DNA of 64,000 bases from a virus, in the IMG/VR virus record IMGVR_UViG_3300017917_002466, positions 124,001-188,000 of that record. The stretch is one strand, 5' to 3'. Below are positions 4,008 to 33,210 of this stretch, piece by piece (position 1 is the stretch's first letter; each line of letters starts with the position of its first letter). Below the pieces are notes generated by a model, which was not told the DNA's origin, ran no database searches, and saw only the letters and a program-made list of their open reading frames with translations. Position numbers and translations under genes: made by a program.

Positions 4008-4030
4008 ATCGTTCCCCTTTCTGTACATCT

Positions 4031-4059
4031 AATATAATACAAAGGGGCCTGAATGTCAA
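4031..4059 (-). promoter_or_regulatory. Sigma70-like promoter
   Basis: TTGACA / 17 bp / TATATT on the minus strand, upstream of 3792-4007; near-duplicate of 3481-3509. Confidence 0.75.
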
Positions 4060-4074
4060 GCCCCTTTTTGTATT

Positions 4075-4509: not shown

Positions 4510-4534
4510 TGATTGTTTTCCTTTCTGTACATTC

Positions 4535-4563
4535 AATATACATCAAGCGAGTCGGTTTGTCAA
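4535..4563 (-). promoter_or_regulatory. Sigma70-like promoter
   Basis: TTGACA / 17 bp / TATATT on the minus strand, upstream of 4207-4509. Confidence 0.85.
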
Positions 4564-4760
4564 GCTCTATTTTTGGTATTTCCGTACAGACATAATACTT
4601 GATACTCTTCACCATCAGAGTAAGGAATCTTTTTATTTGACATTTCAGCAAAAACAAACCGAACACCTTGATTTCGAAGGTCTTGAGCAGCTGCTTGAAG
4701 GTCAGAAATTAACTCTTCTACCGAACCACCTACGCTTATTTCAACTTCTACTCTTCGCAT
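4560..4760 (-). CDS. Hypothetical phage protein
   Basis: 66 residues beginning MRRVEVEISVGGS. Beta strand, long helix, strand pattern. The ATG at 4760 has a GGAGG site upstream. Single gene with its own promoter (4782-4810). Function unknown. Confidence 0.7.
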   Translation of the reverse strand: MRRVEVEISVGGSVEELISDLQAAAQDLRNQGVRFVFAEMSNKKIPYSDGEEYQVLCLYGNTKNRA

Positions 4761-4781
4761 ATTCCCTCCTTTTGTACATAT

Positions 4782-4810
4782 AATATACAACAAATGAGCT
4801 TGAAAGTCAA
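4782..4810 (-). promoter_or_regulatory. Sigma70-like promoter
   Basis: TTGACT / 17 bp / TATATT on the minus strand, at the border between phage genes and the distal end of cassette array A. Confidence 0.8.
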
Positions 4811-4823
4811 ACTCTTTTTATAT

Positions 4824-5591
4824 TTAGTAACATCTAAGCAAGCGCTTTGTGTGCAGGGCCCCGGCGGGAAGGTGGCGTCCGTCAAGTGAATACGTCTCCA
4901 GTCGACCGGGGCGCACCGCGACCGGCGGTCTGTGGCGGCTGTCCAATACACCCGCCCTGGGCACCAGAGAAAACAATCCGGAAAGCGTACTGATACTGTG
5001 ATTGTCGTAGTTGCTCAACTGGATATAACAGGCGTCCGACTGCGGGAGATCGGTGCCCACGGTCCAGAGCCATGAACTGCCGCTGAGCCGTGCGGTCGTC
5101 AACGTCTGGAAATTGATACCGCCGTCGGTTGACAGTTCGACGCGCAGGTCGGCCTGAAGACCGATCTGCCAGGTAATCTCATACGTCGAACCCAATTCGA
5201 TATTCTCTCCGCCGGTAGGCGTCAGGACGAGAAATGGAACATCCTCCTGCACCGTTACCGATATACTGTCAACGACGGTAAACTCTCCGTCGTAGGCAGA
5301 CAACTGGAACACGTACGCTCCCGCCATCGAGAACACAACCAGAGACGACTTCGCGCCCGGAGCCCGGATATCGGCTCCGCCGGCAGGCCCGTCAACCTGC
5401 GTCCACTGATATTGCAGTTGTGCATTGAGCAGGCTGTCGTCCGTCGCAGTGGCGAAAAACCGGAAGGTCTGTCCAAGTCGAAACGTCGTATCGTGTCCGG
5501 CATTGACAACCGGCGGATTATTCTGAACGCCCCACACCCCGGACGACAGCATCAAAATACCCAGAATTGCGGAAAAACCGAGCCGAGTCAT
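4824..5591 (-). CDS. Secreted PKD/Ig-like repeat protein (array A, distal cassette)
   Basis: 255 residues. Residues 1-22 form a signal peptide (basic start, hydrophobic core, SGVWG). Residues 25-110 read as a PKD-type domain (NAGHDTTFRLGQ, then YQWTQVDGP, then VFQLSAYDG). Residues 120-205 form a second beta domain (TPTGGENIELGSTYEITW). The tail SLDGRHLP resembles the sorting-type tail of proteins from Bacteroidota or Fibrobacterota relatives, but the last 40 residues look partly frame-shifted. GC-rich codons differ from the phage genes, so it was probably taken from a bacterium. It lies next to the attC-like site at 5621-5721; none is seen on its other side. Confidence 0.75.
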   Translation of the reverse strand: MTRLGFSAILGILMLSSGVWGVQNNPPVVNAGHDTTFRLGQTFRFFATATDDSLLNAQLQYQWTQVDGPAGGADIRAPGAKSSLVVFSMAGAYVFQLSAYDGEFTVVDSISVTVQEDVPFLVLTPTGGENIELGSTYEITWQIGLQADLRVELSTDGGINFQTLTTARLSGSSWLWTVGTDLPQSDACYIQLSNYDNHSISTLSGLFSLVPRAGVLDSRHRPPVAVRPGRLETYSLDGRHLPAGALHTKRLLRCY

Positions 5592-5620
5592 AAAACATCA
5601 CCCCCATTTAATTCACATTG

Positions 5621-5721
5621 CCTACAACGTTTACGCAATGGGCGAAGCGCACCGTCTACAAAAAAGTTTATCTTCCTCCTTACCACAAACGGTGCATTTT
5701 GCCCTTGCGCTGTTGTGTGAT
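5621..5721 (-). repeat. attC-like site A7
   Basis: Left arm ACAACGTTTACGCAATGGGC and right arm TTGCCCTTGCGCTGTTGTG form an imperfect hairpin with a long loop; the outer cores are complementary (ACAAC/GTTGT). Confidence 0.75.
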
Positions 5722-5734
5722 GTGTTGCGAGTAC

Positions 5735-5881
5735 CTAAATGTTAATAGCTATTGTTGTACAAATAAACCCTGATAATAATCCAATCCCACTACCAGCAGA
5801 TGGAGGTAAATTAAAAAGAATGCTTATGCCACAACTAATGAAACATCCAATAACAAAACCAATAATCACACGACACAACAT
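5735..5881 (-). CDS. Membrane microprotein (array A cassette 7)
   Basis: 48 residues, almost wholly hydrophobic and Gly rich, with two possible membrane segments (VIIGFVIGCFIS and SGIGLLSGFI). The ATG at 5881 follows a GGAGG site. Its stop lies just before the right arm of the attC-like site A7. No homologue recognised. Confidence 0.6.
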   Translation of the reverse strand: MLCRVIIGFVIGCFISCGISILFNLPPSAGSGIGLLSGFICTTIAINI

Positions 5882-5915
5882 AATACCTCCTTTAAAAATT
5901 TAAGAGCAACATTTT

Positions 5916-6052
5916 GCACAACGTTTACGCAACGGTAGATGTGTTGCGCTTACTTGGTTCACAAATATCATCTACAAACTTAAACTGACAATCGGGATAC
6001 CACTTGCACTTCAAACATTGGCGCAACATTTCTACCTTGCGGTGTTGTGTGT
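5916..6052 (-). repeat. attC-like site A6
   Basis: GCACAACGTTTACGCAACGG pairs imperfectly with CTTGCGGTGTTGTG. The inner arms GGTAGATGTGTTGCGC and GCGCAACATTTCTACC also pair. The 3' end of the A6 gene lies inside the hairpin. Confidence 0.8.
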
Positions 6053-6170
6053 TGCGGAGGAAGGCTACCTCAGATTCCAGAGCAATTATGCGCTTTTGAC
6101 TACGCACACAAACCAACATTTGAAAAAAACCGATTGCCACCAAAACGATGATTGAAATTGAGTTAAGCAT
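5925..6170 (-). CDS. Membrane-anchored small protein (array A cassette 6)
   Basis: 81 residues. An N-terminal membrane helix (ISIIVLVAIGFFQMLV), a short coiled segment, and a Cys pair (CLKCKWYPDCQF) that could bind metal. The C-terminal codons are supplied by attC-like site A6. A related CRKCVWYPD segment occurs in the cassette at 31696-31962. Confidence 0.65.
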   Translation of the reverse strand: MLNSISIIVLVAIGFFQMLVCVRSQKRIIALESEVAFLRNTQHRKVEMLRQCLKCKWYPDCQFKFVDDICEPSKRNTSTVA

Positions 6171-6207
6171 AATTGCTCCTATAATGATAAAAAGCCGACC
6201 GTAGTTT

Positions 6208-6237
6208 CACACAACGGTTTGCCGTGTGTTGTGTGAT
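6208..6237 (-). repeat. attC-like site A5, very short
   Basis: ACACAACGG and CCGTGTGTTGTGT pair directly with a 4-nt loop. About 30 nt in all, against 60-200 for the others; probably a collapsed site. Confidence 0.55.
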
Positions 6238-6252
6238 GTTTAACCGCGCCTC

Positions 6253-6399
6253 CTAATTTTCTTTCGGCGCAGGCACTTGAGTAAACTTACCATCAAGAGT
6301 AACCTCGAAATAATTACCACAACAATCCCGAACCAATTCTATATCACGATAACCGCCTACAGGCTCGTAACCAAGTTTGCGAAGAATATAGCAGTTCAT
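6253..6399 (-). CDS. Hypothetical small protein (array A cassette 5)
   Basis: 48 residues beginning MNCYILRKLGYEPVGGYRD, with a Cys pair (DCCGNYF). The ATG at 6399 follows GGAG. Fills the cassette between two attC-like sites. No homologue recognised. Confidence 0.6.
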   Translation of the reverse strand: MNCYILRKLGYEPVGGYRDIELVRDCCGNYFEVTLDGKFTQVPAPKEN

Positions 6400-6445
6400 T
6401 TTTGCTCCTTGCGCCGAACTATTAATTCAAAGCGCGGTTAAATTT

Positions 6446-6524
6446 CGCACAACGTTCAGCGCACAGCCGATGCGGTACGCCCCGTGCTACGCTTCCCACG
6501 TTTCGGCTTGCGCTTGTTGGCCGA
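6446..6524 (-). repeat. attC-like site A4
   Basis: CGCACAACGTTCAGCGCACA and GGCTTGCGCTTGTTGG form the arms; AGCCGATGCGG pairs with the CGGCT region. Encodes the tail of the A4 protein. Confidence 0.8.
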
Positions 6525-6761
6525 TGTGCCTGCCGACTCAAATTTTACCAGCGGGCGACCCGGCGTAGTTACGAGAAGTCGAAGAAAGTAAATCGCTGCA
6601 TCGTTAGCCACTTTGTGCAGCTTTTTATAAGAATCGCGGCAGCCTTGTTGCCTGAACGTGTCAACAAAAGCCATTGCGATATTCGACTGCCACGCATATC
6701 GATACCCTTCGTCTTTTTTCAGGGCTGCCGCCACCATTTTGAATGCCTGTTGAAACTTCAT
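6456..6761 (-). CDS. Cassette protein, paralogue of 33538-33795 (array A cassette 4)
   Basis: 101 residues. Residues 4-40 (FQQAFKMVAAALKKDEGYRY, then NIAMAF) match the cassette protein at 33538-33795 (FQEAFKVFTRALRRDKGLYR, then NIAMAY). The homologous pair thus occurs in both arrays. The basic tail (RKPKRGKRS, then SAVR) is encoded by the attC-like hairpin. Function unknown. Confidence 0.7.
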   Translation of the reverse strand: MKFQQAFKMVAAALKKDEGYRYAWQSNIAMAFVDTFRQQGCRDSYKKLHKVANDAAIYFLRLLVTTPGRPLVKFESAGTSANKRKPKRGKRSTGRTASAVR

Positions 6762-6805
6762 TTTGCTCCTTTCGCCCGCCTACAAGATGGTTCGGCAGGC
6801 ATTTT

Positions 6806-6945
6806 GGCCAACGTGTTGCTAAACGGCTGATAGTTGCCGAATAGCCTGCAAAGATTGTCGAGCCAACACATACTGACCGTTGGACGTATACTCATCGTAA
6901 TCACGCAAACGTGAGGCAATTTCAGCCTTTAGTTGTTGTAGGCTG
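6806..6945 (-). repeat. attC-like site A3
   Basis: GGCCAACGTGTTGCTAAACG and CTTTAGTTGTTGTAGG are the arms; CGGCTGATAGTTGCC pairs with GGCAATTTCAGCC. Confidence 0.8.
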
Positions 6946-7061
6946 TTTGAGGAGGCTTCCATCAATTTTGCAGCACAAACAAGTGCCGCCTCTGCACTTC
7001 CAATATCTCCAACACTTAAAGCCAATTGAGCATTATGAATGTGTGATAGTATGTGCTGCAT
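6819..7061 (-). CDS. Helical cassette protein (array A cassette 3)
   Basis: 80 residues, all-helical, tetratricopeptide-like spacing (NAQLALSVGDIGSAEAALVC). The ATG at 7061 is close to the preceding attC core. The last codons read through the attC arm. No family assigned. Confidence 0.65.
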   Translation of the reverse strand: MQHILSHIHNAQLALSVGDIGSAEAALVCAAKLMEASSNSLQQLKAEIASRLRDYDEYTSNGQYVLARQSLQAIRQLSAV

Positions 7062-7086
7062 ATAACTCCAATGAAAAGTTTATTTC

Positions 7087-7190
7087 CACCAACGTTGACA
7101 AATGCTGAAGTGCCCGCCTATATAACCTCTACCTTAATGTCAGCGGGCATTTGGGTCGAGGCATCCGAGCCAGCATTTGTTTGTTGTGTG
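7087..7190 (-). repeat. attC-like site A2
   Basis: CCAACGTTGACAAATGCTG and CAGCATTTGTTTGTTGTGTG are the arms, with an inner GTGCCCGC/GCGGGCAT stem. Confidence 0.85.
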
Positions 7191-7291
7191 CTGTGACGAC
7201 CGGCTACCTTGATTTTCTGTGCGGCGACCTTACGCAACTTATTGGCAACGACTTCCGCAACAGGATCGGGGCCGATGACTTCGATATTCAT
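7118..7291 (-). CDS. Hypothetical small protein (array A cassette 2)
   Basis: 57 residues from the ATG at 7291 (AAGGA site upstream). Starts MNIEVIGPDPVAEVVANKLR; the rest is basic and low in structure and is largely encoded by attC-like site A2. Confidence 0.6.
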   Translation of the reverse strand: MNIEVIGPDPVAEVVANKLRKVAAQKIKVAGRHSTQQTNAGSDASTQMPADIKVEVI

Positions 7292-7341
7292 ATGATTCCT
7301 TTCGCCGCACCTATTTATAGAAAAGCCGGGCGGCATGGCAT

Positions 7342-7487
7342 CACAACGTTTCAGGCACTCGCCTGTTGTTTTTCTGCGACTCTATATTGACAAGACTCTG
7401 CCACGCAATACCCACGATTGACATTTAATGGGCACTTATGTTCCGATCCGAGACAGCAGAAAAATTGCAGGCTGCCTGTGTTGTATG
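7342..7487 (-). repeat. attC-like site A1
   Basis: CACAACGTTTCAGGCACTCG and GCAGGCTGCCTGTGTTGTA are the arms; inside, TTGTTTTTCTGC pairs with GCAGAAAAATTG. Confidence 0.85.
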
Positions 7488-7605
7488 AAGGTTTTGTTGA
7501 CTCCACCAGTGCTGCTTTTATGCGAAGCCACGCAAGATACTGGAGTCGCGACATACCGATATCACCCCAAGCCGAATCAACACTTTCTATATCTTCTTGT
7601 AGCAT
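7351..7605 (-). CDS. Cassette protein, related to 30252-30503 (array A cassette 1)
   Basis: 84 residues from the ATG at 7605, after a GGAGG site. The segment LAWLRIKAALVESTKPSYN resembles LAWGRIKMFCEEALKPSHN of the cassette at 30252-30503. The C-terminal part is Cys rich (CCLGSEHKCPLN). First cassette behind the attI-like site. Role unknown. Confidence 0.7.
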   Translation of the reverse strand: MLQEDIESVDSAWGDIGMSRLQYLAWLRIKAALVESTKPSYNTGSLQFFCCLGSEHKCPLNVNRGYCVAESCQYRVAEKQQASA

Positions 7606-7640
7606 AAAAGCCTCCAATACGGTTCAACAAAACTTTTGTA

Positions 7641-7680
7641 CAACTAGTTAAATGATGTCATTCCCTTGTCTAACTCTTTG
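7641..7680 (-). other. attI-like site, array A
   Basis: 40 bases identical to 33852-33891, the only other place where a cassette array begins. On the minus strand it ends CTAGTTGTAC, an attC-type GTT core directly joined to the first cassette. It contains GTTAGAC and GTTAAAT-like half-sites. No integrase gene is visible. Confidence 0.65.
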
Positions 7681-7697
7681 TTTTCTCCTATACATTT

Positions 7698-7726
7698 AAT
7701 ATACAACAGGAAACCGTTCTTGTCAA
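7698..7726 (-). promoter_or_regulatory. Promoter facing array A
   Basis: TTGACA / 17 bp / TATATT on the minus strand. It sits in the place of an integron cassette promoter. I saw no copy of this promoter inside the array. Confidence 0.8.
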
Positions 7727-7734
7727 GCCCTTTC

Positions 7735-7917: not shown

Positions 7918-7939
7918 GTTGCCTCCCTTTCTTACTATC

Positions 7940-7968
7940 AATATACACTATGGAAGAAGGATTGTCAA
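7940..7968 (-). promoter_or_regulatory. Sigma70-like promoter
   Basis: TTGACA / 17 bp / TATATT on the minus strand, upstream of 7735-7917. Confidence 0.8.
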
Positions 7969-7991
7969 GCCCCAAAGTTGAAGTCCTTTTA

Positions 7992-8399: not shown

Positions 8400-8541
8400 A
8401 AAAAAGAAAACCGGGACCGATAGAGAAGGGGAGAGGGAGGAATCGATCCCGGTTTCTTTGAAGCAACTTTAAAGATGGTAGCTTTTTGATTTGTCTTTTA
8501 GCCGCATCAACTCGGCGCAGTCAACTACCGAAACTGCTTGC
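8400..8541 (-). ncRNA. Candidate small RNA with own promoter and terminator
   Basis: The promoter at 8548-8576 reads leftward into about 140 bases without a usable gene (the longest frame is 12 codons). They end in a strong hairpin: AAACCGGGA pairs with TCCCGGTTT and is followed on the minus strand by CTTTTTT. Promoter, short RNA and terminator make a stand-alone unit. Confidence 0.6.
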
Positions 8542-8547
8542 AATCTT

Positions 8548-8576
8548 AATATACATTACTCGGGTCGTTTTGTCAA
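8548..8576 (-). promoter_or_regulatory. Sigma70-like promoter of the candidate small RNA
   Basis: TTGACA / 17 bp / TATATT on the minus strand. Confidence 0.8.
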
Positions 8577-8596
8577 GTCCTTTTAATAAAAAAATA

Positions 8597-25632: not shown

Positions 25633-26481
25633 CTAACGGGCATTTCGCACAACAGTGTCCTGCGCGGGGCTTCTTAGCGCATGGATGCGCTCTTCTGCTA
25701 TCCGGCAGTATTTCTCTTCCTTCTCAATTCCGATGTAATTCCGGCCAGTATTAATACAAGCGATTGCAGTAGTACCGGAACCAATGAACGGGTCTAAAAT
25801 TGTATCACCACAAAAAGAATAATAAGAAATCGCTTTTGTAGCCAACTCTAATGGGAACGGAGCTGGATGTCTATTACGCTCCGGGTTGATTTTCCATACA
25901 TTTGTTCTTTCGTAACCATCCAGCACTTTGGATTTTTTTATTATCTCTTGTGAATGAGAACGAATTGATTTGTCCAGTAAGCACCCCGGCTTTGAAAACA
26001 CCAGTATATATTCTGTAATATTAAATGTTTTGTACGCAACTGGTCTACGATGGTGCGAAAATTTGATTGCTCGACTTGATGCACCATCTGGCTTTACCCA
26101 TATAATGTCGTCTAAGAATGTCCATTTTTTTGAAAGCATAGAACAAACATCAAACGGTATTGGTATTCGTTTTGATTCTGTGCTTCTTTTTTTCCTCGCT
26201 TCAATAACGCATGACAAGTTCAGCACAAATATTCCCGCCGGTTTTATCTTTGTATGTGCCGTATTAAAAACTGTGTCTAAAAAAGATAGATACGAGGCAT
26301 ACGATTCGTATTTTGAATAACACCTTGCATTATAATACGGCGGTGATGTTAAAATCATATCCACGCTCTCGTCTGGTATAGTCTGCATGACTTCGAGGCA
26401 GTCCCCGCATGTTACGGTATTTGTCTTCGGCGCAGGACGCGCCGTGTCTTGCCCCGCGCCTATAATTTCAGAATTTGCCAT
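25633..26481 (-). CDS. Site-specific DNA methyltransferase, beta-class order (array B distal cassette)
   Basis: 282 residues from the ATG at 26481. Motif IV TSPPYY at about 44-49 comes first. The AdoMet-binding motif DPFIGSGTTAIA comes near residue 235, followed by NYIGIEKEEKYCRIAEERI. The order and the TSPPY motif fit an N4-cytosine or N6-adenine methyltransferase. The ribosome site AGG is part of the attC core GTTAGGTGC right before the ATG. No cognate restriction enzyme beside it. Probably modifies phage or host DNA against restriction. Confidence 0.85.
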   Translation of the reverse strand: MANSEIIGAGQDTARPAPKTNTVTCGDCLEVMQTIPDESVDMILTSPPYYNARCYSKYESYASYLSFLDTVFNTAHTKIKPAGIFVLNLSCVIEARKKRSTESKRIPIPFDVCSMLSKKWTFLDDIIWVKPDGASSRAIKFSHHRRPVAYKTFNITEYILVFSKPGCLLDKSIRSHSQEIIKKSKVLDGYERTNVWKINPERNRHPAPFPLELATKAISYYSFCGDTILDPFIGSGTTAIACINTGRNYIGIEKEEKYCRIAEERIHALRSPAQDTVVRNAR

Positions 26482-26485
26482 ATTG

Positions 26486-26618
26486 CACCTAACGGTTCGG
26501 CAAACGTAAGCCGTGCCTACGAATGCGTGCGACAAGGATATTTTACGTGAACGCACTGACGGTCGTAATTCTCCACACAGCACGTTGTTTGGCATGGCTT
26601 GCTTTGCCTGTTGTTTGT
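26486..26618 (-). repeat. attC-like site B25
   Basis: CACCTAACGGTTCGGCAAAC and GCTTTGCCTGTTGTTTG are the arms; TAAGCCGTGCC pairs with GGCATGGCTTG. Minus-strand core GTTAGGT fits the integron consensus GTTRRRY. Confidence 0.85.
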
Positions 26619-26732
26619 CTGTTGAGCGAGTACAGCGGATTTCAGAGTTTGCCAATGCAACCGCCCCTTAGTTTGCAAGTGCTCCGATAACTCATCAAAC
26701 CATTGAACCGCATCAGATATTTCGTTACTCAT
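26517..26732 (-). CDS. Hypothetical cassette protein (array B)
   Basis: 71 residues from the ATG at 26732 (GGAG site). MSNEISDAVQWFDELSEHLQ is helical; the C-terminal 35 residues, Cys and basic rich, are encoded inside attC-like site B25. Confidence 0.6.
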   Translation of the reverse strand: MSNEISDAVQWFDELSEHLQTKGRLHWQTLKSAVLAQQTNNRQSKPCQTTCCVENYDRQCVHVKYPCRTHS

Positions 26733-26769
26733 TGGCAAACTCCTATCAGTAAATTTAAGAGCGAAATTG

Positions 26770-26910
26770 CAAACAACGTATCACGCACCCGCCCGTTGTT
26801 TGTCCGTTATCCACTTACAGCACCGAGGGCACCAAGCATCTATACCGCTATATGGATACACTGGTGCCTTACCACATGTAGGACAAATTACGGGCTGCGT
26901 GTGTTGTGGG
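26770..26910 (-). repeat. attC-like site B24
   Basis: AACAACGTATCACGCACCCG pairs with CGGGCTGCGTGTGTTG; the zinc-ribbon end of the B24 gene lies in the loop. Confidence 0.8.
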
Positions 26911-27095
26911 ACCGTGGGCAATTCTACCGCAATCTCTGCGCGGCGATCTTTTACCCATTGCTCCATTTCGATTTGATCATTACTCAATACCACCAACGCA
27001 TCATTAGGGATTTTCCCACCATGACGAAAAGGTGCCGTGACCTTGTTGACTCGGCAAAGGAACATCTCAAGCCTGTGTATGTCTTCGACGCGCAT
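26781..27095 (-). CDS. Zinc-ribbon cassette protein (array B)
   Basis: 104 residues from the ATG at 27095 (AAGGA site). Helical first half, then CPTCGKAPVYPYSGIDAWCP and CCKW, a four-Cys zinc ribbon whose codons lie in the attC hairpin loop. Confidence 0.65.
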   Translation of the reverse strand: MRVEDIHRLEMFLCRVNKVTAPFRHGGKIPNDALVVLSNDQIEMEQWVKDRRAEIAVELPTVPQHTQPVICPTCGKAPVYPYSGIDAWCPRCCKWITDKQRAGA

Positions 27096-27122
27096 AATAA
27101 TTCCTTTTGAATTGCCCATGTA

Positions 27123-27264
27123 CCACAACGTTTAGCGCACGGGTGATAGTTTGCCCGTGGCTCGACAAAGCCCACACTTTACCATACCAGTACCAGGATC
27201 GTCGGATAAATACTCGCCACTACCCATACACGTAGGGCAAATTTTACCCTGCGCTTGTTGGTTG
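27123..27264 (-). repeat. attC-like site B23
   Basis: CCACAACGTTTAGCGCACGG and CCCTGCGCTTGTTGGTTG; GATAGTTTGCCC pairs with GGGCAAATTTT. Confidence 0.85.
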
Positions 27265-27371
27265 ATGCGGAGGGAAGCCACCTCAGCCTCCAGCGTGGCG
27301 ATAGCCCGTTCAAGAGACAAAAACCGATTCATAACAAATGATGGATCAGAGAAATCAATTTCGTTTACCAC
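27132..27371 (-). CDS. DnaJ-type zinc-finger cassette protein (array B)
   Basis: 79 residues, GTG start at 27371 behind GGAGG. Coiled N-terminal part (LERAIATLEAEVASLR), then CPTCMGSGEY...CGLCRATGK, the C-x-x-C-x-G-x-G pattern of DnaJ zinc fingers. The cassette at 27722-27958 has a similar pair. Confidence 0.7.
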   Translation of the reverse strand: MVNEIDFSDPSFVMNRFLSLERAIATLEAEVASLRINQQAQGKICPTCMGSGEYLSDDPGTGMVKCGLCRATGKLSPVR

Positions 27372-27407
27372 GCCACACCTCCATGTATAAAAAGCTGACC
27401 GAAGTTT

Positions 27408-27490
27408 CAACCAACGTCTGCCCTATGCTGACGTTTCTGTTTCAGAAATGTGGGAGTCATCGACCGAACAGCATTGGGCTGTTGTTTGCT
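27408..27490 (-). repeat. attC-like site B22
   Basis: CAACCAACGTCTGCCCTATG and CAGCATTGGGCTGTTGTTTG are the arms; TTTCTGTTTCAGAAA closes the loop. Confidence 0.75.
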
Positions 27491-27668
27491 GTGCGCTCGC
27501 TTCCACAAAACCTGCGGTTTGCGGAGTATCGAGAGGGCACCAATTTGGTATTTCAAAAGTAACATTGATAACAGACCTACCGCCATATAGAGGATGGTTG
27601 CAAATAAATCCACTCTGACTGTAGCACAAGGGACATTCGTTACAGCAACTAATTTTGATTACACGCAT
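27423..27668 (-). CDS. Cys-rich cassette protein (array B)
   Basis: 81 residues from the ATG at 27668: CCNECPLCYSQSGFICNHP gives five Cys and one His in 20 residues, a clear metal site. The tail is attC-encoded. Confidence 0.65.
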   Translation of the reverse strand: MRVIKISCCNECPLCYSQSGFICNHPLYGGRSVINVTFEIPNWCPLDTPQTAGFVEASAQQTTAQCCSVDDSHISETETSA

Positions 27669-27705
27669 GAGCAAACCGCCTATCTATTCTCAAAAGAGCG
27701 CATTG

Positions 27706-27846
27706 CAACCAACGGTATCGGCTACGCCTGAAGTTTGCCCGTACCGTGACAACGCCAACAGTCCTTACCATTGTTATAATTATTGGTAGAACCAGACCCA
27801 GCAGGGAAACAGTCAGGGCAAATTTTAGGCTGGCCGTGTTGGTGGA
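27706..27846 (-). repeat. attC-like site B21
   Basis: AACCAACGGTATCGGCTACG and GGCTGGCCGTGTTGGTGG; GAAGTTTGCCCG pairs with AGGGCAAATTTT. Confidence 0.8.
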
Positions 27847-27958
27847 TGTGACGCTTGCTTCCACCAATTTTGCGGCGGGTCTTAAACTGATCCTCGCCAT
27901 AGTGGCCGGTTATGTAATTATCAAGTTCCTGACTCATGCGCTTATCGTTGCCGAACAT
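27722..27958 (-). CDS. DnaJ-type zinc-finger cassette protein (array B)
   Basis: 78 residues, ATG at 27958 behind GGAGG. KICPDCFPAGSG and CWRCHGTGKL form a DnaJ-like zinc finger encoded within the attC hairpin. Related to 27132-27371. Confidence 0.65.
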   Translation of the reverse strand: MFGNDKRMSQELDNYITGHYGEDQFKTRRKIGGSKRHIHQHGQPKICPDCFPAGSGSTNNYNNGKDCWRCHGTGKLQA

Positions 27959-27999
27959 ATTTCCTCCCGCCGCTTACCAGTTAAAAGCAAGCGGCATTT

Positions 28000-28144
28000 A
28001 CACCAAGTTTGGCGCATTCGCACGAAGTTACGCCGTCTTATCGCACCAACAAGTAGAACACTGCTTGTGAGCAACATCAAACGGGCATATATCCAAGCCC
28101 CATTTACAAGAAGGCGTAATTTTGTGCTGCGCCTGTTGGTGGAT
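28000..28144 (-). repeat. attC-like site B20
   Basis: ACCAAGTTTGGCGCATTCGC and GCTGCGCCTGTTGGTGG; GAAGTTACGCC pairs with GGCGTAATTTT. The left core is degenerate (CCAAG for CCAAC). Confidence 0.75.
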
Positions 28145-28267
28145 GTGCCGCGTTTCTTCCGCAATGTCAGGCTGGCAATCTTCCAGCATGATAGGGCAAG
28201 AACCGGCGTGATCCACTATTTCATCTTGAGTGCCAAAGAAGCCGCAATATTTACATTTGCCAGCCAT
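28028..28267 (-). CDS. Zinc-finger cassette protein (array B)
   Basis: 79 residues from the ATG at 28267: MAGKCKYCGFFGTQDEIVDH, then AGSCP gives a C-x2-C...H...C finger near the start. A second Cys group (CKWGLDICP, CSTCWC) is attC-encoded. Confidence 0.65.
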   Translation of the reverse strand: MAGKCKYCGFFGTQDEIVDHAGSCPIMLEDCQPDIAEETRHIHQQAQHKITPSCKWGLDICPFDVAHKQCSTCWCDKTA

Positions 28268-28298
28268 ATAATAAACCTTTCTTGAAACGCGGCATTTA

Positions 28299-28443
28299 CA
28301 CCAACGTTTGCTCAACCGCACGATAGTTGTCGCAATCGATCTACCACTGCTGTAACATAAGACACATAAACCTTGTGCTCAACAAACTCTTTGTAAAGAC
28401 TATCGGCTATTGCGGCAATTTCGTGCTTGAGCTGTTGTACGTC
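28299..28443 (-). repeat. attC-like site B19
   Basis: CACCAACGTTTGCTCAACCG and TGCTTGAGCTGTTGTAC; CACGATAGTTGTCGCAA pairs with TTGCGGCAATTTCGTG. Confidence 0.8.
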
Positions 28444-28551
28444 TGTGGAAGGAGCGGCTTCCTCAGCTTTAAGTGCTCGCATCACGGCAGGGCAACGGTC
28501 TACGTTTATACCCATACCGCTACACGGCAAAATGAATGACTTGTTATCCAC
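28312..28551 (-). CDS. Hypothetical cassette protein (array B)
   Basis: 79 residues, GTG start at 28551 behind GGAGG. APSTDVQQLKHEIAAIADSL resembles APSTDVQQPQVDITA of the cassette at 29752-29973, because both read the same attC arm. Helical; function unknown. Confidence 0.6.
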   Translation of the reverse strand: MDNKSFILPCSGMGINVDRCPAVMRALKAEEAAPSTDVQQLKHEIAAIADSLYKEFVEHKVYVSYVTAVVDRLRQLSCG

Positions 28552-28590
28552 GCGAGCACCTCCTAAATCGTAAAGAGCGACTGGAATTGC

Positions 28591-28724
28591 GTACAACGGT
28601 TCAGCAACGTGCGCCGTGCCTACAGGGCTTCACGGCAATATGGACACCACACAAACCCAGTATGGGCCTTGCCAAGACGAAGCCACTCGTGAAATTGGCA
28701 TGGCGTACTTGCCGTGTTGTGCGA
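28591..28724 (-). repeat. attC-like site B18
   Basis: GTACAACGGTTCAGCAACGT and TACTTGCCGTGTTGTGC; GCGCCGTGCC pairs with GGCATGGCG. Nearly identical over 100 bases to site B15 at 29438-29571. Confidence 0.85.
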
Positions 28725-28832
28725 TGAATTTGTTGACTCCCTAATGTAAGCGCGAATTGCTTCTAACGCGGTAAAATCTTTTGAATATTTACACATTCTC
28801 TCTACTTGCAAAACGGCTTCGTGTATATCCAT
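28620..28832 (-). CDS. Cassette protein, 3' half duplicated at 29468 (array B)
   Basis: 70 residues from the ATG at 28832 (GGAGG site). Helical N-terminal half (HEAVLQVERMCKYSKDF). The C-terminal FHEWLRLGKAHTGFVWCPYC is shared with 29468-29701 and ends in a Cys pair. Start region like 31415-31651. Confidence 0.65.
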   Translation of the reverse strand: MDIHEAVLQVERMCKYSKDFTALEAIRAYIRESTNSSHNTASTPCQFHEWLRLGKAHTGFVWCPYCREAL

Positions 28833-28863
28833 TCGCGCCTCCAATATGGTTCAACAAACTTTT

Positions 28864-28953
28864 GCACAACGGTTCGGCAAACGGGCGAAGTTGGTTTACC
28901 TCGACACGGAGGGCTGTTCTACGCCAATTTCGCCCTTTGCCTGTTGTGCGATG
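28864..28953 (-). repeat. attC-like site B17
   Basis: GCACAACGGTTCGGCAAACG and CCCTTTGCCTGTTGTGC; GGGCGAAGTTGG pairs with CCAATTTCGCCC. Confidence 0.9.
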
Positions 28954-29063
28954 TTGTTTTTAATTACCTTAATTTCAGCGGCGATTTCTCGTAACCGAAG
29001 ATTATTAGCTACAACAAAGCACCACAACGATAAATAAGCCAGAAAGACAAAAAACCATTTCAT
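28896..29063 (-). CDS. Membrane-anchored cassette protein (array B)
   Basis: 55 residues: MKWFFVFLAYLSLWCFVVAN is a membrane anchor or signal, then LRLREIAAEIKVIKNNIAQQ is a helix. GGCGG site before the ATG at 29063. Tail attC-encoded. Confidence 0.6.
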   Translation of the reverse strand: MKWFFVFLAYLSLWCFVVANNLRLREIAAEIKVIKNNIAQQAKGEIGVEQPSVSR

Positions 29064-29100
29064 AATCGCCGCCTATAAATCAAAGATTAAAAACCATTTC

Positions 29101-29235
29101 GCCTAACGTCTACCGCATCGCACGAAGTTGCCGCGCCCAAACCCACAACCTACGATAAACCCCTGACGGTAGATTATTGTTATTGTCTACAAAGGCTTCC
29201 ATTTCTGCGGCAATTTTGTGCTGCGGTTGTTGCAC
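29101..29235 (-). repeat. attC-like site B16
   Basis: GCCTAACGTCTACCGCATCG and GTGCTGCGGTTGTTGCAC; CACGAAGTTGCCGCG pairs with TGCGGCAATTTTGTG. GCCTAAC is the canonical integron core RYYYAAC. Confidence 0.9.
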
Positions 29236-29406
29236 GGGGCGCTTCGCCCGAACCGTTCGGCCCGTTTCCAAATTATCCAGCGCGGTGCGGACTGCTATTG
29301 CCCCGCTGTGGCCGAGAGAATAATTGACAACGGCAACCGCTTTGCCGTTACGACATACCTCAAACGCATAGCCAGTATCTTCTATCTCATATTTGGCACC
29401 GCGCAT
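29110..29406 (-). CDS. Hypothetical cassette protein (array B)
   Basis: 98 residues. The first 50 (MRGAKYEIEDTGYAFEVCRN, SGAIAVRTALDNLE) form a small alpha/beta unit; the rest, basic then helical, is attC-encoded. Function unknown. Confidence 0.65.
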   Translation of the reverse strand: MRGAKYEIEDTGYAFEVCRNGKAVAVVNYSLGHSGAIAVRTALDNLETGRTVRAKRPVQQPQHKIAAEMEAFVDNNNNLPSGVYRRLWVWARQLRAMR

Positions 29407-29437
29407 ATTAACATCCTATCTTTAAGGGCCGAATGGC

Positions 29438-29571
29438 GTGCAACGTTCTCGGCAATGTACGCCGTGCCTACAGGGCTTCACGGCAATATGGACACCACAC
29501 AAACCCAGTATGGTCCTTGCCAAGACGAAGCCACTCGTGATATTGGCATGGCGTACTTGCCGTGTTAGGCG
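29438..29571 (-). repeat. attC-like site B15
   Basis: GTGCAACGTTCTCGGCAATG and TACTTGCCGTGTTAGGCG; GTACGCCGTGCC pairs with GGCATGGCGTAC. The plus-strand core GTTAGGC matches the integron consensus exactly. Confidence 0.9.
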
Positions 29572-29701
29572 ATGTAGAAAGCGACTCCTTAACGTCCTCA
29601 AATTTGACAAATTCACCGTCGTCGCACTCCTCCATCCGAGCATGCGTGCCATACATATCGCTCGTGACCTTATAATCGTACCGTGTCAAATTTACATCCA
29701 T
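29468..29701 (-). CDS. Cassette protein, 3' half duplicated at 28620 (array B)
   Basis: 77 residues from the ATG at 29701. The N-terminal half NLTRYDYKV...GEFVKFEDVKESLS resembles 32217-32474 (NLTRYNLEW...AWVKFDDIKELLN) and 31696-31962. The C-terminal half is nearly identical to 28620-28832, so this cassette is a hybrid. Confidence 0.65.
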   Translation of the reverse strand: MDVNLTRYDYKVTSDMYGTHARMEECDDGEFVKFEDVKESLSTSPNTASTPCQYHEWLRLGKDHTGFVWCPYCREAL

Positions 29702-29724
29702 ATATCGCTCTCGCTTTCTATTTC

Positions 29725-29863
29725 GCATAACGTCTGCCACACGGTTGATCGTTACGGCCTACCTTGCCAATCACCAGATTCACGTTCAGGAACATCATAT
29801 CGCCGTTTAGATAAATCTCCATAATATGAATAGGCCGTAATGTCAACCTGTGGCTGTTGTACG
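29725..29863 (-). repeat. attC-like site B14
   Basis: GCATAACGTCTGCCACACGG and CCTGTGGCTGTTGTACG; TTGATCGTTACGGCCTA pairs with TAGGCCGTAATGTCAA. Confidence 0.85.
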
Positions 29864-29973
29864 TCTGTGGAAGGAGCGGATTCTTTAGTTAATGCGGTGC
29901 AGCCATGACCGACACCCTGAACACCTTGCCACTCCCACCGAGCTTGTATATAGTGACGACAATCTTTGAACAT
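29752..29973 (-). CDS. Hypothetical cassette protein (array B)
   Basis: 73 residues from the ATG at 29973 (GGCGG site). FKDCRHYIQARWEWQGVQGV near the start; the second half is attC-encoded. Function unknown. Confidence 0.6.
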   Translation of the reverse strand: MFKDCRHYIQARWEWQGVQGVGHGCTALTKESAPSTDVQQPQVDITAYSYYGDLSKRRYDVPERESGDWQGRP

Positions 29974-30012
29974 TTGCACCGCCTTATAGATCGTTTAGAG
30001 CGACTGGAATAG

Positions 30013-30083
30013 CGTACAACGTGTGCCAAAGTATGAAGGTGTGAAACAATTTGCGAAGCGAACATACTTTGGCTGTTGTGTGT
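30013..30083 (-). repeat. attC-like site B13, compact
   Basis: GTACAACGTGTGCCAAAGTA and ATACTTTGGCTGTTGTGTG; an 11-bp perfect stem GCCAAAGTATG/CATACTTTGGC. No coding sequence inside. Closely similar to site B6 at 31989-32064. Confidence 0.9.
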
Positions 30084-30238
30084 TGGTTTTCGCTCCACAA
30101 TATTAAAAAGCAATTTGGCGATTGTAACGAGGCCAACTCAACCACCCTCGTATCCCATCGGGCGTCCCCTTTGGTGGTCTACATAGCCGTGGACGGCTTA
30201 GCCAAATTGCCTATAAATTCAAAGAGCGAAAACTTACA
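30081..30238. ncRNA. Non-coding structured cassette NB2
   Basis: A cassette-sized interval between two attC-like sites without a reading frame of use. Outer helix GTTTTCGCT (30086-30094) with AGCGAAAAC (30225-30233). Second helix GCAATTTGGC (30110-30119) with GCCAAATTGC (30201-30210). Inner hairpins ACCACC/GGTGGT and AGCCG-TGGA-CGGCT. The cassette at 32059-32205 has the same outer helix and layout but a different, again complementary, second helix. Strand of the RNA not known. Confidence 0.6.
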
Positions 30239-30389
30239 CACAACGTATACGCTATTGTGAAGTAACTATGTTATTTAGGCGCTCCTCTAACTGTGAAATA
30301 AGCGACAATGCCTGTGGATACGACTCCATTGCTGACGGAACTGAATCCCGTAGAAACTTGAGCGCCGCCACAATAGCGTTGTTGTGCGA
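30236..30389 (-). repeat. attC-like site B12
   Basis: ACACAACGTATACGCTATTG pairs with CAATAGCGTTGTTGTG; most of the B12 gene's second half lies in the loop. Confidence 0.85.
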
Positions 30390-30503
30390 AGGTTTTAACG
30401 CCTCCTCACAAAACATTTTTATGCGACCCCACGCCAGTTGTTCAGACGAAGACCCTTTTGCATTAACAAGTGCGCTAACAGATGATAGTTCATTTTCAAG
30501 CAT
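30252..30503 (-). CDS. Cassette protein, related to 7351-7605 (array B)
   Basis: 83 residues from the ATG at 30503 (GGAG site). LAWGRIKMFCEEALKPSHN matches the array A cassette at 7351-7605. All-helical; function unknown. Confidence 0.7.
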   Translation of the reverse strand: MLENELSSVSALVNAKGSSSEQLAWGRIKMFCEEALKPSHNNAIVAALKFLRDSVPSAMESYPQALSLISQLEERLNNIVTSQ

Positions 30504-30535
30504 AAAAACTCCTAAATAAAAAGCGTTAAAACTTT

Positions 30536-30734
30536 TGCACAACGGGATCAGGCATTGCCCGACAGTTTGCGCGGTGCTTCACAAGCGATACAAACGCTTC
30601 ACAAAGCGCGAAGTTGCCGCGCCCATTTACTTAACTGCTCTGCACTTGGTACGCCACCGATATTTGCTATGCGCACACCATCCTCAAGCTCAGTGGCAAT
30701 TTGGGCGATAGCCGCGCTTTGTGTGTTGGTTGAT
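30536..30734 (-). repeat. attC-like site B11, long
   Basis: The left side starts GCACAACGGGATCAGGCATT; the pairing arms are CACAAAGCGCGAAGTTGCC and GGCAATTTGGGCG...CCGCGCTTTGTGTG. Extra sequence on the left side makes it about 200 nt. Confidence 0.65.
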
Positions 30735-30895
30735 GTGGAAGGAATGCCCACCTTATTTTTCTTTCGGCGGGTAATCTTTCTCCACCACGAATGAACAACG
30801 GAACAGATAATAGCAACCAATCCTATTGCCAACGCTACGCCAAGGAACACCAGCCCAAACACATCATGAAACGTCCATACGAAAATAGAACCCAT
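30599..30895 (-). CDS. Membrane cassette protein (array B)
   Basis: 98 residues. Residues 10-36 form a membrane helix (FGLVFLGVALAIGLVAIICS), then a basic stretch (WWRKITRRKKNK) that would stay inside, and a soluble helical tail encoded in the attC hairpin. Confidence 0.7.
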   Translation of the reverse strand: MGSIFVWTFHDVFGLVFLGVALAIGLVAIICSVVHSWWRKITRRKKNKVGIPSTSTNTQSAAIAQIATELEDGVRIANIGGVPSAEQLSKWARQLRAL

Positions 30896-30945
30896 TTTTT
30901 TCTCCTTACCCGCCGAACTATTAATTCAAAAGCGGGATTTATTTT

Positions 30946-31024
30946 GCACAACGGTCAGCGCACAGCCGATGCGGTACGCTTACCATTTTTGCTACCCCGT
31001 TTCGGCTTGCGCTTGTTGTGTGCT
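30946..31024 (-). repeat. attC-like site B10
   Basis: GCACAACGGTCAGCGCACAG and GGCTTGCGCTTGTTGTGTG; near-identical left arm to A4. Confidence 0.85.
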
Positions 31025-31131
31025 GTTCGGCGCGACTCTAATCGCTCCCAGGCGGCCAGCTCCGCATCACCACGGGCCTCCGCCGCACCCATCACAGCAT
31101 CAAAATCATCAGGACCATAATCGTTTTTCAT
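30955..31131 (-). CDS. Basic-tailed cassette microprotein (array B)
   Basis: 58 residues from the ATG at 31131: acidic helical first half (MKNDYGPDDFDAVMGAAEAR), strongly basic second half (NKRKPKRGSKNGKRTASAVR) encoded by the attC arm and closely like the tail of 6456-6761. Confidence 0.6.
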   Translation of the reverse strand: MKNDYGPDDFDAVMGAAEARGDAELAAWERLESRRTAHNKRKPKRGSKNGKRTASAVR

Positions 31132-31170
31132 TTGGCCGCCTTTACAATAACGCTCTCACGCCGAATGGCA

Positions 31171-31230
31171 TCACAACGTTCACCGCACGCCGGATGCGGT
31201 ACTCCGTTTACGGCTGCGGGTGTTGTGCGA
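31171..31230 (-). repeat. attC-like site B9
   Basis: TCACAACGTTCACCGCACGC and GGCTGCGGGTGTTGTGCG; about 60 nt. Confidence 0.85.
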
Positions 31231-31374
31231 AGTGCGGCCCGCTTCCGCAAGTATTGGCGCGACTTCGCTACGGTGCGCCCACTGACCTTCCTTGTCAAAC
31301 ACAAACCTTGCAATTACTTTTCCACAGCAAATCTCAGTTTTCAATGAATACCACTGCAGTTTTTTTCGCGCCAT
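31180..31374 (-). CDS. Hypothetical cassette protein (array B)
   Basis: 64 residues from the ATG at 31374 (GGAGG site): MARKKLQWYSLKTEICCGKV, a small beta unit with a Cys pair. Basic attC-encoded tail. Confidence 0.6.
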   Translation of the reverse strand: MARKKLQWYSLKTEICCGKVIARFVFDKEGQWAHRSEVAPILAEAGRTSHNTRSRKRSTASGVR

Positions 31375-31400
31375 TATAACCTCCAAAAGGGCCGCATTTT

Positions 31401-31536
31401 GCACAACGTCTGCGCTACTGGTGCTGTGCGCATACTAAGCAGGCATGTTTTTTACACTTTCGACTAGTAATTACACCACAGTCGTAACCAGCTCCGATGT
31501 GCGCTTCGCATGGCACCATAGCGCTGTTGTGCGATG
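31401..31536 (-). repeat. attC-like site B8
   Basis: GCACAACGTCTGCGCTACTG and ATAGCGCTGTTGTGCG; the Cys-rich end of the B8 gene is in the loop. Confidence 0.85.
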
Positions 31537-31651
31537 AATTTGTTGACTCCGCCAGTGCTGCGCGAATGGTTTCCAATGCACATTTACAATCTGGACACTG
31601 GTGTTGATCCACGACTATTTGAAAATGAGCCAAGGCTTTCTTAATTTCCAT
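31415..31651 (-). CDS. Cys-rich cassette protein (array B)
   Basis: 78 residues from the ATG at 31651 (GGAGG site; same start region as 28620-28832). CPDCKCALETIRAALAES near the middle and CKKHACLVCAQH at the end suggest metal binding. Confidence 0.65.
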   Translation of the reverse strand: MEIKKALAHFQIVVDQHQCPDCKCALETIRAALAESTNSSHNSAMVPCEAHIGAGYDCGVITSRKCKKHACLVCAQHQ

Positions 31652-31682
31652 TCGCGCCTCCAATATGGTTCAGCAAATTTTT

Positions 31683-31848
31683 CGCACAACGTATGCTAAA
31701 CGGCTGATGCCTTGCGCTGGATAAAATAGTCGTGAACATCTGGATACCACACACATTTACGACATTTATATAAATCCTCGTAATCGCTACCATAGTACGT
31801 TTCACATTCCTTACAGCGCAAGGTTTCAGCCTTTAGCGGTTGGTTGCC
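31683..31848 (-). repeat. attC-like site B7
   Basis: CGCACAACGTATGCTAAACG and CTTTAGCGGTTGGTTG; GGCTGATGCCTTGCGCTG pairs with CAGCGCAAGGTTTCAGCC. Confidence 0.9.
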
Positions 31849-31962
31849 TGTTTGTGAAAGCTCCTTAGTGTCGGCAAATTTTAAATATACTCCGTCACCA
31901 CCTTGATGTATGTCGCAATCACAATCGCAACTATTAAACACAAATGTTCTGAAATTTGCCAT
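31696..31962 (-). CDS. Cys-rich cassette protein (array B)
   Basis: 88 residues. The N-terminal half (MANFRTFVF, VYLKFADTKELSQ) is related to 32217-32474. LRCKECETYYG...CRKCVWYPD adds a two-site Cys ribbon; its last part is like that of 5925-6170 in array A. Confidence 0.65.
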   Translation of the reverse strand: MANFRTFVFNSCDCDCDIHQGGDGVYLKFADTKELSQTGNQPLKAETLRCKECETYYGSDYEDLYKCRKCVWYPDVHDYFIQRKASAV

Positions 31963-31988
31963 ATAATATCGCTCCTTTCACAAATTGC

Positions 31989-32064
31989 AACCAACGGTTG
32001 CCAAAGTATGAAGTTTACGTTTCGTAAATTTGCGAAGCGAACATACTTTGGCTGTTGTGTGTTG
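31989..32064 (-). repeat. attC-like site B6, compact
   Basis: CCAACGGTTGCCAAAGTATG and CATACTTTGGCTGTTGTGTG, with GTTTACGTTTCGTAAAT in the loop. Similar to B13. Confidence 0.9.
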
Positions 32065-32205
32065 GTTTTCGCTTCACAATAATGTAAGGCGCGGGGCTGC
32101 ATAGGCTGAGTAGTGACCACCGCAGCATATATCTCCACCGAAAGTACGGTGAACCCTCAATTGTCACCGCGCCATATAAATTCCAAAGAGCGAAAACTTT
32201 CACAC
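32059..32205. ncRNA. Non-coding structured cassette NB1
   Basis: Same plan as 30081-30238. Outer helix GTTTTCGCT (32065-32073) with AGCGAAAAC (32189-32197). Second helix GGCGCGG (32088-32094) with CCGCGCC (32167-32173), covarying with GCAATTTGGC/GCCAAATTGC of NB2. Inner hairpin CACCG-AAAGTA-CGGTG (32136-32151). The only minus-strand ATG after the attC core is followed by a stop two codons later. Confidence 0.6.
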
Positions 32206-32344
32206 AACGGTTCGCACTACTGCTGTTCGTGCCAATCGGTTCGTTTGCCAGTAAACCTACTGCACGCATGGCACGTGGGGCTGACACAACCACCTATGTT
32301 ACGTTTGCAAGATTGGCATGACAGCATAGCGCTGTTGTGCGATG
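32201..32344 (-). repeat. attC-like site B5
   Basis: CACACAACGGTTCGCACTAC and AGCATAGCGCTGTTGTGCG are the arms. Confidence 0.8.
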
Positions 32345-32474
32345 AATTTAGAAGCTCCTTAATGTCGTCAAATTTAACCCAAGCCCCCTCATCGGATGCA
32401 ACCATTTGATGAAAATTATCCATAGTTTTAGTACGGTTAAACCACTCTAAATTATAACGGGTTAAATTTGCCAT
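32217..32474 (-). CDS. Cys-rich cassette protein (array B)
   Basis: 85 residues: MANLTRYNLEWFNRTKTMDN, then AWVKFDDIKELL (family core shared with 29468 and 31696), then attC-encoded CQSCKRNIGGC...CHAC. GGAG site before the ATG. Confidence 0.65.
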   Translation of the reverse strand: MANLTRYNLEWFNRTKTMDNFHQMVASDEGAWVKFDDIKELLNSSHNSAMLSCQSCKRNIGGCVSPTCHACSRFTGKRTDWHEQQ

Positions 32475-32500
32475 ATAATATCGCTCCTTTCACAAATTGC

Positions 32501-32628
32501 AACCAACGTTTACGCAACGGGTGAAGTCGCCACAACTTTTAGATTATGACAATACCCTTGCTTTAATGTACAATGATCCGATAAACACTTTAAACTACAC
32601 TCGATTTCACCCTTGCGTTGTTGGTTGT
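32501..32628 (-). repeat. attC-like site B4
   Basis: AACCAACGTTTACGCAACGG and CTTGCGTTGTTGGTTG; GGGTGAAG pairs with TTTCACCC. Confidence 0.85.
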
Positions 32629-32749
32629 CTGTAAAATTTTCTACCTTAGATGCAAGAGCGGCACACCATACGAGATGGGTATACTGCTCCTTATCTAACG
32701 TAGATTTACAACCAATACTATCAAACCATTCTCTACAAGTGCCGCTCAT
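32510..32749 (-). CDS. Hypothetical cassette protein (array B)
   Basis: 79 residues from the ATG at 32749 (GGAG site): MSGTCREWFDSIGCKSTLDK. Several Cys in the attC-encoded part (CSLKCLSDHCTLKQGYC). Confidence 0.6.
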   Translation of the reverse strand: MSGTCREWFDSIGCKSTLDKEQYTHLVWCAALASKVENFTDNQQRKGEIECSLKCLSDHCTLKQGYCHNLKVVATSPVA

Positions 32750-32775
32750 ATAAACTCCAAAGAAAATTTTATTGC

Positions 32776-32850
32776 AACCAACGTTTGACAAATGGTGAAG
32801 TCGTGTACTCACGATTTAGGCTTTTCGTTACCATTTGTTTGTTGTAAGAT
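32776..32850 (-). repeat. attC-like site B3
   Basis: AACCAACGTTTGACAAATGG and CCATTTGTTTGTTGTAAG are the arms; about 75 nt, outside the coding sequence. Confidence 0.85.
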
Positions 32851-32868
32851 GTTTATGCCACTTCCTTA

Positions 32869-33165: not shown

Positions 33166-33210
33166 TTTTTCTCCTGCGCCAACATCTGAATATCAGAGTG
33201 GCATAAATTT

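Follow-up and report, generated by a model that had tools for sequence, protein, structure and literature searches.

Two integron-like cassette arrays in a phage genome, with gene-internal hairpin sites and a possible shuffling of protein halves

Phages are already known to carry integrons. In the study of Qi et al. 2023 (PMC9892861), phage integrons with IntI and clusters of attC sites lacking integron integrases (CALINs), the latter also in virulent phages, have co-oriented small-gene cassettes and attC-like hairpins, often lack an integrase and carry DNA methylases as cargo; five of the six phage sites tested there recombined with IntI1. Here we describe two cassette arrays alike in these respects, A and B, from a window of 64,000 nucleotides (nt). 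The window is the whole stretch analyzed, bases 124001–188000 of the 253,664-base IMG/VR virus record IMGVR_UViG_3300017917_002466 (called G000), which has a terminase match. Unlike the published phage arrays, these and their relatives had an extrahelical base on the L' arm, hairpins encoding protein C-termini and complementary cassette ends, and the recombinases adjoining some of the relatives lack the long IntI insertion. We give roughly two chances in three to the reading that arrays A and B represent a phage integron-like cassette system, here recombinase-less, that shuffles protein halves. Array A is a real integron-like array, and more than an ordinary integron fragment.

Chromosomal integrons (e.g., of Vibrio; for their attC rules, see PMC2727003) have similar folded R''-L''-L'-R' sites with an unpaired spacer, extrahelical bases and a variable terminal structure, and the same order of recombinase, attI and cassettes. 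Their extrahelical bases lie by definition on the R''-L'' arm; when placed on the opposite arm, these bases caused a switch of the recombining strand and a crossover at R'' (PMC2727003). In contrast, in the loci described here the recombinase is on the cassette strand and most cores have GTT without RRRY. The I2 helix of integron integrases is said in PMC7790495 to have been acquired for folded single-strand recombination, and is linked there to avoiding second-strand exchange. Published work also ties I2-type insertions to the recognition of extrahelical bases. The open-access literature searched (including PMC8876359; subscription papers and preprints were outside the scope) gave nothing closer on coding attC sites, attC domain shuffling or phage integrons.

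Hairpin sites and the coding capacity of their loops

A strict hairpin scan of the window returned sites in arrays A and B only (one in array A, against a mean of 0.0 in dinucleotide shuffles, and seven in array B, against 0.04). A relaxed scan of the window arrays and viral loci gave 113 sites, versus about 3 in shuffles. In the window we annotated 32 sites, 7 in array A and 25 in array B, some of them placed by eye; the automatic score cut-off passes 21 (4 and 17, respectively). No further array was seen across the whole 253,664-base record. Array A extends from near 7644 down to 4824; array B goes from 33855 down to about 26494 and is followed by a methylase gene. An earlier note on this DNA had described co-oriented cassettes in two arrays about 18 kb apart, and indeed all cassette genes of both arrays were on the minus strand and the distance held. 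Its count of eight cassettes and seven hairpins in array A stood in outline: positions 4824–7680 contained eight minus-strand open reading frames (ORFs) with ribosome-binding-site-like starts and seven R''...R' sites. One of the sites is a 12-nt remnant without an L stem, the last ORF has no hairpin, and four of the seven sites pass the cut-off.

On the gene strand, each unit starts with a GTT-type R' box, followed by a leader with one arm, a ribosome-binding site, the start codon, the front part of the gene and a second arm. Then come an AAC-type R'' box, one base, L'' (about 6 bp), a further stem and the loop. Beyond the loop, the stem returns, now with an extra base, and leads into L', some four bases and the next R'. 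This imperfect R''-L''...L'-R' palindrome with AAC/GTT boxes is that of an attC site. Before the counts of coding frames, modules, end pairing, folding and the bases preceding GTT, the duplicate locus L041 and weak isolated sites in L037, L056 (two) and L057 (two) were removed. Only 8 of 115 R' boxes fitted the attC core GTTRRRY (7/85 and 1/30), and the GTT itself was required by the scan. When four arrays were scanned even-handedly, the extrahelical base of 24 of 27 sites was on the L' arm, and thus not on the R''-L'' arm expected of attC; of the classical phage integron sites, one of four had it on the L' arm. A fuller count gave 80/92, with a scorer that adds a point for the L' arm. Spacers were mostly 1/4 nt, in contrast to mostly 3/3 in classical controls.

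Having at least two attC-like sites and no nearby integrase, arrays A and B can be classed as CALINs, with these differences in their attC-like sites. They could be ordinary CALINs, i.e., classical bacterial cassettes taken up by the phage and moved only at R' by a host IntI, the mixing of gene parts being due to generic attC sites joined to many genes at cassette formation. The published CALINs of virulent phages and their IntI1-competent sites favor this, as does the G + C content of 45–47% in the arrays, higher than the 36% of the remaining window. The displaced extrahelical base and the unequal spacers speak against it, as do further points below, and we regard this origin as unlikely. Folded structures between co-oriented small genes would also be expected of regulatory RNAs or terminators in a small-gene operon, which would not be recombination sites. 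Such a role is highly improbable, given the attC-like geometry of boxes and spacers, the attI-like motif, the adjoining recombinase and the reshuffled modules described below. Rfam, at the gathering score, and ARAGORN gave no match on the window.

Most of the hairpins were coding. At sites with loops of at least 90 nt, we took the coding frame from an upstream ORF picked blind to the loop. This frame remained open to a point no more than 30 nt short of R' in 49 of 53 cases, and the other frames in 14 of 106; a further nine sites lacked an ORF of this kind. The stop codon fell 2–7 nt before GTT in 37 of the 49 open frames. Since these frames run through R'' to near R', the hairpin usually encodes the protein C-terminus, and R'' splits the gene into a front part (N-module) and a hairpin-encoded C-module. 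Shorter hairpins were often non-coding; over all sites, an ORF through R'' with a stop near R' was found in 62 of 112. Several of the hairpin-encoded C-termini had paired cysteines, and others resembled IA...RQLRA.

The features of the two arrays, all on the minus strand, are as follows (aa, amino acids).

7641–7684, minus strand: attI-like sequence of 44 nt at the promoter-side (5') end of array A, ending in TTTAACTA and then GTTG; identity to 33852–33895, 98%
7351–7605, minus strand: cassette A1 ORF, 84 aa; N-module 7644–7480, hairpin/C-module 7479–7348
7118–7291, minus strand: cassette A2 ORF, 57 aa; C-module 7182–7094
6819–7061, minus strand: cassette A3 ORF, 80 aa; C-module 6934–6813, of the QLKAEIA..RQLSAV family
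6456–6761, minus strand: cassette A4 ORF, 101 aa; front part related to 33538–33795, C-module 6515–6454 related to that of B10 (31014–30953), not B1
6253–6399, minus strand: cassette A5 ORF, 48 aa, stopping before R''; long terminal inverted repeats 6228–6271/6410–6453
6216–6227, minus strand: A5/A6 junction, remnant site (site 5), R''-12 nt-R' without L stem
5925–6170, minus strand: cassette A6 ORF, 81 aa; C-module 6043–5923
5735–5881, minus strand: cassette A7 ORF, 48 aa, stopping before R''; hairpin 5711–5629
4824–5591, minus strand: last array A ORF, 255 aa, PKD/Ig-like, G + C content 58%; no hairpin after it
33852–33895, minus strand: attI-like sequence heading array B (5' end), overlapping the 3' end of ORF 33859–34095
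26494–33855, minus strand: array B, 25 hairpin sites, architecture as in array A, G + C content 47%
29445–29563, minus strand: C-module B15, 94% identical to that of B18; unrelated front part
28598–28715, minus strand: C-module B18
25633–26493, minus strand: N6/N4 DNA methylase ORF region, 3' end of array B

Among eight window proteins searched for domains, only the N6/N4 methylase was over the cut-off. Ten cassette proteins gave nothing over the curated Pfam cut-offs, only weak zinc-ribbon-like hints. The GC-rich 255-aa ORF, with weak PKD/Ig-like matches, resembles a bacterial surface protein fragment; the phage is otherwise AT-rich. A promoter-like 47-nt repeat (TGTACAT..AATATACA..TTGTCAAGC) precedes many minus-strand genes (4015–4061, 4519–4565, 4766–4812, 7682–7728, 7924–7970 and 8532–8578), and the copy just upstream of the attI-like site of array A may drive transcription of this array.

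Module combinations and complementary cassette ends

N- and C-modules were combined largely independently of each other. Among 117 modules, 39 pairs had homologous N-modules (blastn E < 1e-4, at least 50 nt; some of the matches were mainly leader and arm), and the C-module was common to three of these. Conversely, 48 pairs had homologous C-modules, with the N-module common to three, and the next N-module common to two of 17 testable pairs. Hairpin homology was not detectable in 36 of the 39 N-homologous pairs, which argues against an ordinary CALIN.

The same hairpins were found with different genes. Those of B15 and B18 were 94% identical, with unrelated flanks on both sides. Locus L055 had two hairpins identical over 74 nt behind unrelated genes, and the same hairpin was found at 95% identity in another phage (L058). 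Across phages, hairpins of 92–100% identity stood behind unrelated genes, so the system is clearly dynamic across phages. In several near-identical hairpins, similarity ceased exactly at R'' at one end and no more than about 5 nt from R' at the other. The reverse case is that of A3 and L060, whose front parts were 83% identical in DNA and whose C-modules were different.

Between the two window arrays, only such parts were shared. The earlier note had given two array A cassettes a homologue in array B. For 6456 and 33538 this was confirmed for the front part (54% of 69 aa), with no hairpin homology found. No direct match linked 7351 with 30252 at E 0.005; the front part of 7351 was closer to the gene at 31415–31651 (61% DNA identity over 177 nt), and the hairpin was not common to the two. 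On the note's check of whether shared cassettes also share their attC sites, these pairs had at most the N-module in common, and not the attC sites. The note's view that the arrays exchanged or inherited cassettes stands in so far as both contain related pieces, half-cassettes and not whole ones, next to independent content. We rejected array A as a segmental copy of part of array B, which the note had named as its refutation: the best matches between them (126 nt with 83% identity and 44 nt with 98%) were scattered and in a different order. The first of these, 6399–6519 versus 30896–31018, covers a C-module and the next leader and ends at the start codon, marking a second kind of module boundary. 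We also observed that N-modules B6 (32054–32208) and B13 (30075–30244) have common outer arms and similar hairpins, with different, palindrome-rich and apparently non-coding interiors; these are possibly cassette-borne small RNAs.

A repeat search revealed inverted repeats flanking single genes (6228–6271/6410–6453, 6516–6547/6781–6812 and 7480–7500/7624–7644). The start and end of the same cassette paired with a mean score of 12.3 (boxes excluded), versus 6.4 with the ends of other cassettes. These figures are for 81 two-ended cassettes from arrays of this kind. In 57 of the 81, own-end pairing exceeded the 99th percentile of foreign pairs; the ends of array neighbors did not pair (6.4). DNA folding of the end, hairpin and own start gave a continuous rod in the individual examples inspected, and was more stable than the foreign-start mean in 71 of 81. 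Such ends would let a single-stranded circular cassette take the shape of a rod, its recombination core in the middle and the gene and its C-terminal part in opposite end loops.

Mosaics of this kind could also arise if, during phage replication, the many short stretches of similarity (hairpins, arms and 5' leaders) recombine homologously or illegitimately; the sites would then be fossil attC. Phages recombine often, the hairpins and leaders supply short homologies, and some breakpoints lie outside the boxes. The near-identical hairpins diverging at R'' and close to R' are against this, and so are the ends that remain complementary in most cassettes and the recombinase genes still open beside four arrays (see below). 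We consider this explanation quite unlikely.

attI-like sites, adjoining recombinases and related arrays

Arrays A and B start with the same 44 nt, and at other array starts we found variants of their final motif: CGTATAATAACTA before GTTG in G007, CATATAATAACTA in G016 (twice) and G025, CATGATTGATCTA in G014 (twice), and others. A similar motif thus heads both window arrays and most of the 14 array starts, which were gathered by eye, as predicted for attI. The two bases before GTT were TA or AA at 13 of these 14 starts, and AC, CC or GC at 115 of 117 internal sites. The attI-like site is located on the R' side, which is a point for an ordinary CALIN and a hint that ordinary R' capture takes place as well, or did so in the past. 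A scan with an attI pattern returned 12 stretches; the motif heads an array in three records (G007, G016 and G025), with no array after the other nine. The exact 21-nt core of the window phage's attI-like sequence was not found in viral contigs. In G016 (locus L104), a single array region contains two attI-like copies about 1 kb apart (6545 and 7548), and a cassette-like leader comes after each of them.

In four contigs (G004, G025, L109 and L080), a recombinase with an open frame, the attI-like site and the array follow each other on one strand. In G025 a tyrosine recombinase gene has the attI-like site as its 3' end, the stop codon TAG overlapping the site; a cassette-like leader comes immediately afterwards, and then the contig end. 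In G004 and L109, homologous recombinases end just before the attI-like site and the cassettes (the L109 protein is 49% identical to that of G004 and 53% to that of G025). L080 has a more distant recombinase (E 2.4e-35 to the family profile), likewise directly upstream of the attI-like site and array. All four family members found therefore adjoin an attI-like site directly upstream on the same strand, weaker matches on other contigs of the L080 bin excluded. A profile search of 17 records detected members in three of them: G004, G025 and the bin with L080. A 373-aa integrase in G019, about 2.4 kb 3' of the single site of that record, has the look of an ordinary phage integrase and was left out of the count. 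A RyR-domain protein (PF02026) is encoded by the cassette that comes first after the recombinase of L109 (6863–7222).

The region from KGxxER to HxLRHS had 57–71 residues in the four recombinases, versus 105 in a classical IntI (M16-3), i.e., 34–48 fewer. We infer that the missing part is I2. These loci are therefore not complete integrons of the IntI type, whose integrase has the I2 insertion, and the separate recombinase family at attI is a further point against an ordinary CALIN. With TIGR02249, the G004 protein scored 125.5 bits, below the cut-off of 265. XerA, XerC and XerD rank among the top matches of these array-adjacent recombinases by profile and fold; unlike them, the recombinases of the four contigs adjoin an attI-like site and a cassette array. 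A structure model of the L109 recombinase, built from three sequences (mean predicted local distance difference test score 77), had XerA structures and IntI4 as best fold matches. Since both are within about 2 Z units and at a high root-mean-square deviation, the model does not decide between them.

A hairpin-plus-loop pattern made from the RQL-type C-module detected 21 stretches in 20 records of viral contigs. A site scan found at least two sites in 15 of these records, one in two, and none or only a doubtful one in three. A second pattern clustered on one strand in most of them, with controls near zero. The records reach 264,037 bases, and seven of the 20 records searched had terminase matches, five over the cut-off. 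Many phages thus carry one or two such arrays, in line with the suggestion of the earlier note to look for either array alone. The same hairpin pattern gave 24 hits in 84,980 prokaryote genomes, with an array at only one (L080, a 9,270-base contig of an uncultured bin), which also disfavors classical bacterial cassettes. The pattern favors one hairpin family, so its hits are no census of arrays in general. In a blastn search, array B matched no phage or plasmid sequence, and no close relatives of one cassette protein were found in viral contigs. Relatives of the tail sheath were on 15 mostly short contigs; three of their records were searched for the site pattern, which was absent from two and gave one isolated match in the third.

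Proposed exchange and its meaning

How protein halves would be shuffled can be outlined from these features. Arrays begin at an attI-like site (about CRTATAATAACTA before GTTG), which in four contigs is at or just after the 3' end of a Xer-like recombinase gene. The Xer-like enzyme would recombine the folded core, capturing cassettes at attI through the GTT of R'. Without an I2-type insertion, it would also exchange at R'', and complete exchange between two folded sites would swap the hairpin tips, hence the C-terminal parts of the proteins. The extrahelical bases on the L' arm, R'' inside the gene and the shorter recombinases together point to such complete exchange on folded sites. It is a tentative proposal, to which we give somewhat less than an even chance, that in a phage-native system an Xer-like enzyme carries strand exchange to completion at folded single-stranded sites within genes and so mixes N- and C-terminal parts in frame, as a combinatorial protein generator; the window arrays would then be recombinase-less examples.

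No PF00589 match was present in G000, and no recombinase gene was found in the phage of the window. Its arrays would therefore be moved in trans, or be relics keeping only attI. As for the active capture proposed in the earlier note, the near-identical hairpins behind unrelated genes show clear dynamics across phages; in the window phage, whose 253,664-nt record has no tyrosine recombinase match, activity would need an enzyme in trans, or is past.

Several points weigh against shuffling by exchange within genes. No recombination event was observed; for excision and integration of cassettes by site-specific recombination, the module combinations give indirect evidence. Chromosomal integrons also have similar hairpins behind unrelated genes, so such hairpins alone are no proof of swapping. 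A3 and L060 diverge about 20–25 nt before R'', and the A4–A5/B10–B11 junction is at a start codon, as homologous or illegitimate recombination would give. A third-codon-position signal was not found in the loops of the commonest C-family, whose sequences are saturated. The attI-like site on the R' side fits ordinary R' crossover, and an R''-only polarity would place it at the other end. A search with the recombinase family profile was negative for G000 and for 13 of the 16 additional records, many of them fragments.

If the proposal is true, phages would have an integron class of their own, in which the recombinase is different, the polarity of the sites is inverted and the sites lie inside genes; it would be a natural counterpart of the laboratory attC mutants with the crossover shifted to R''. 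The role of the I2 helix of integron integrases would become testable, because these enzymes lack the insertion and yet stand beside attC-like arrays. The diversification by phages of small, possibly host-directed proteins would become testable as well.

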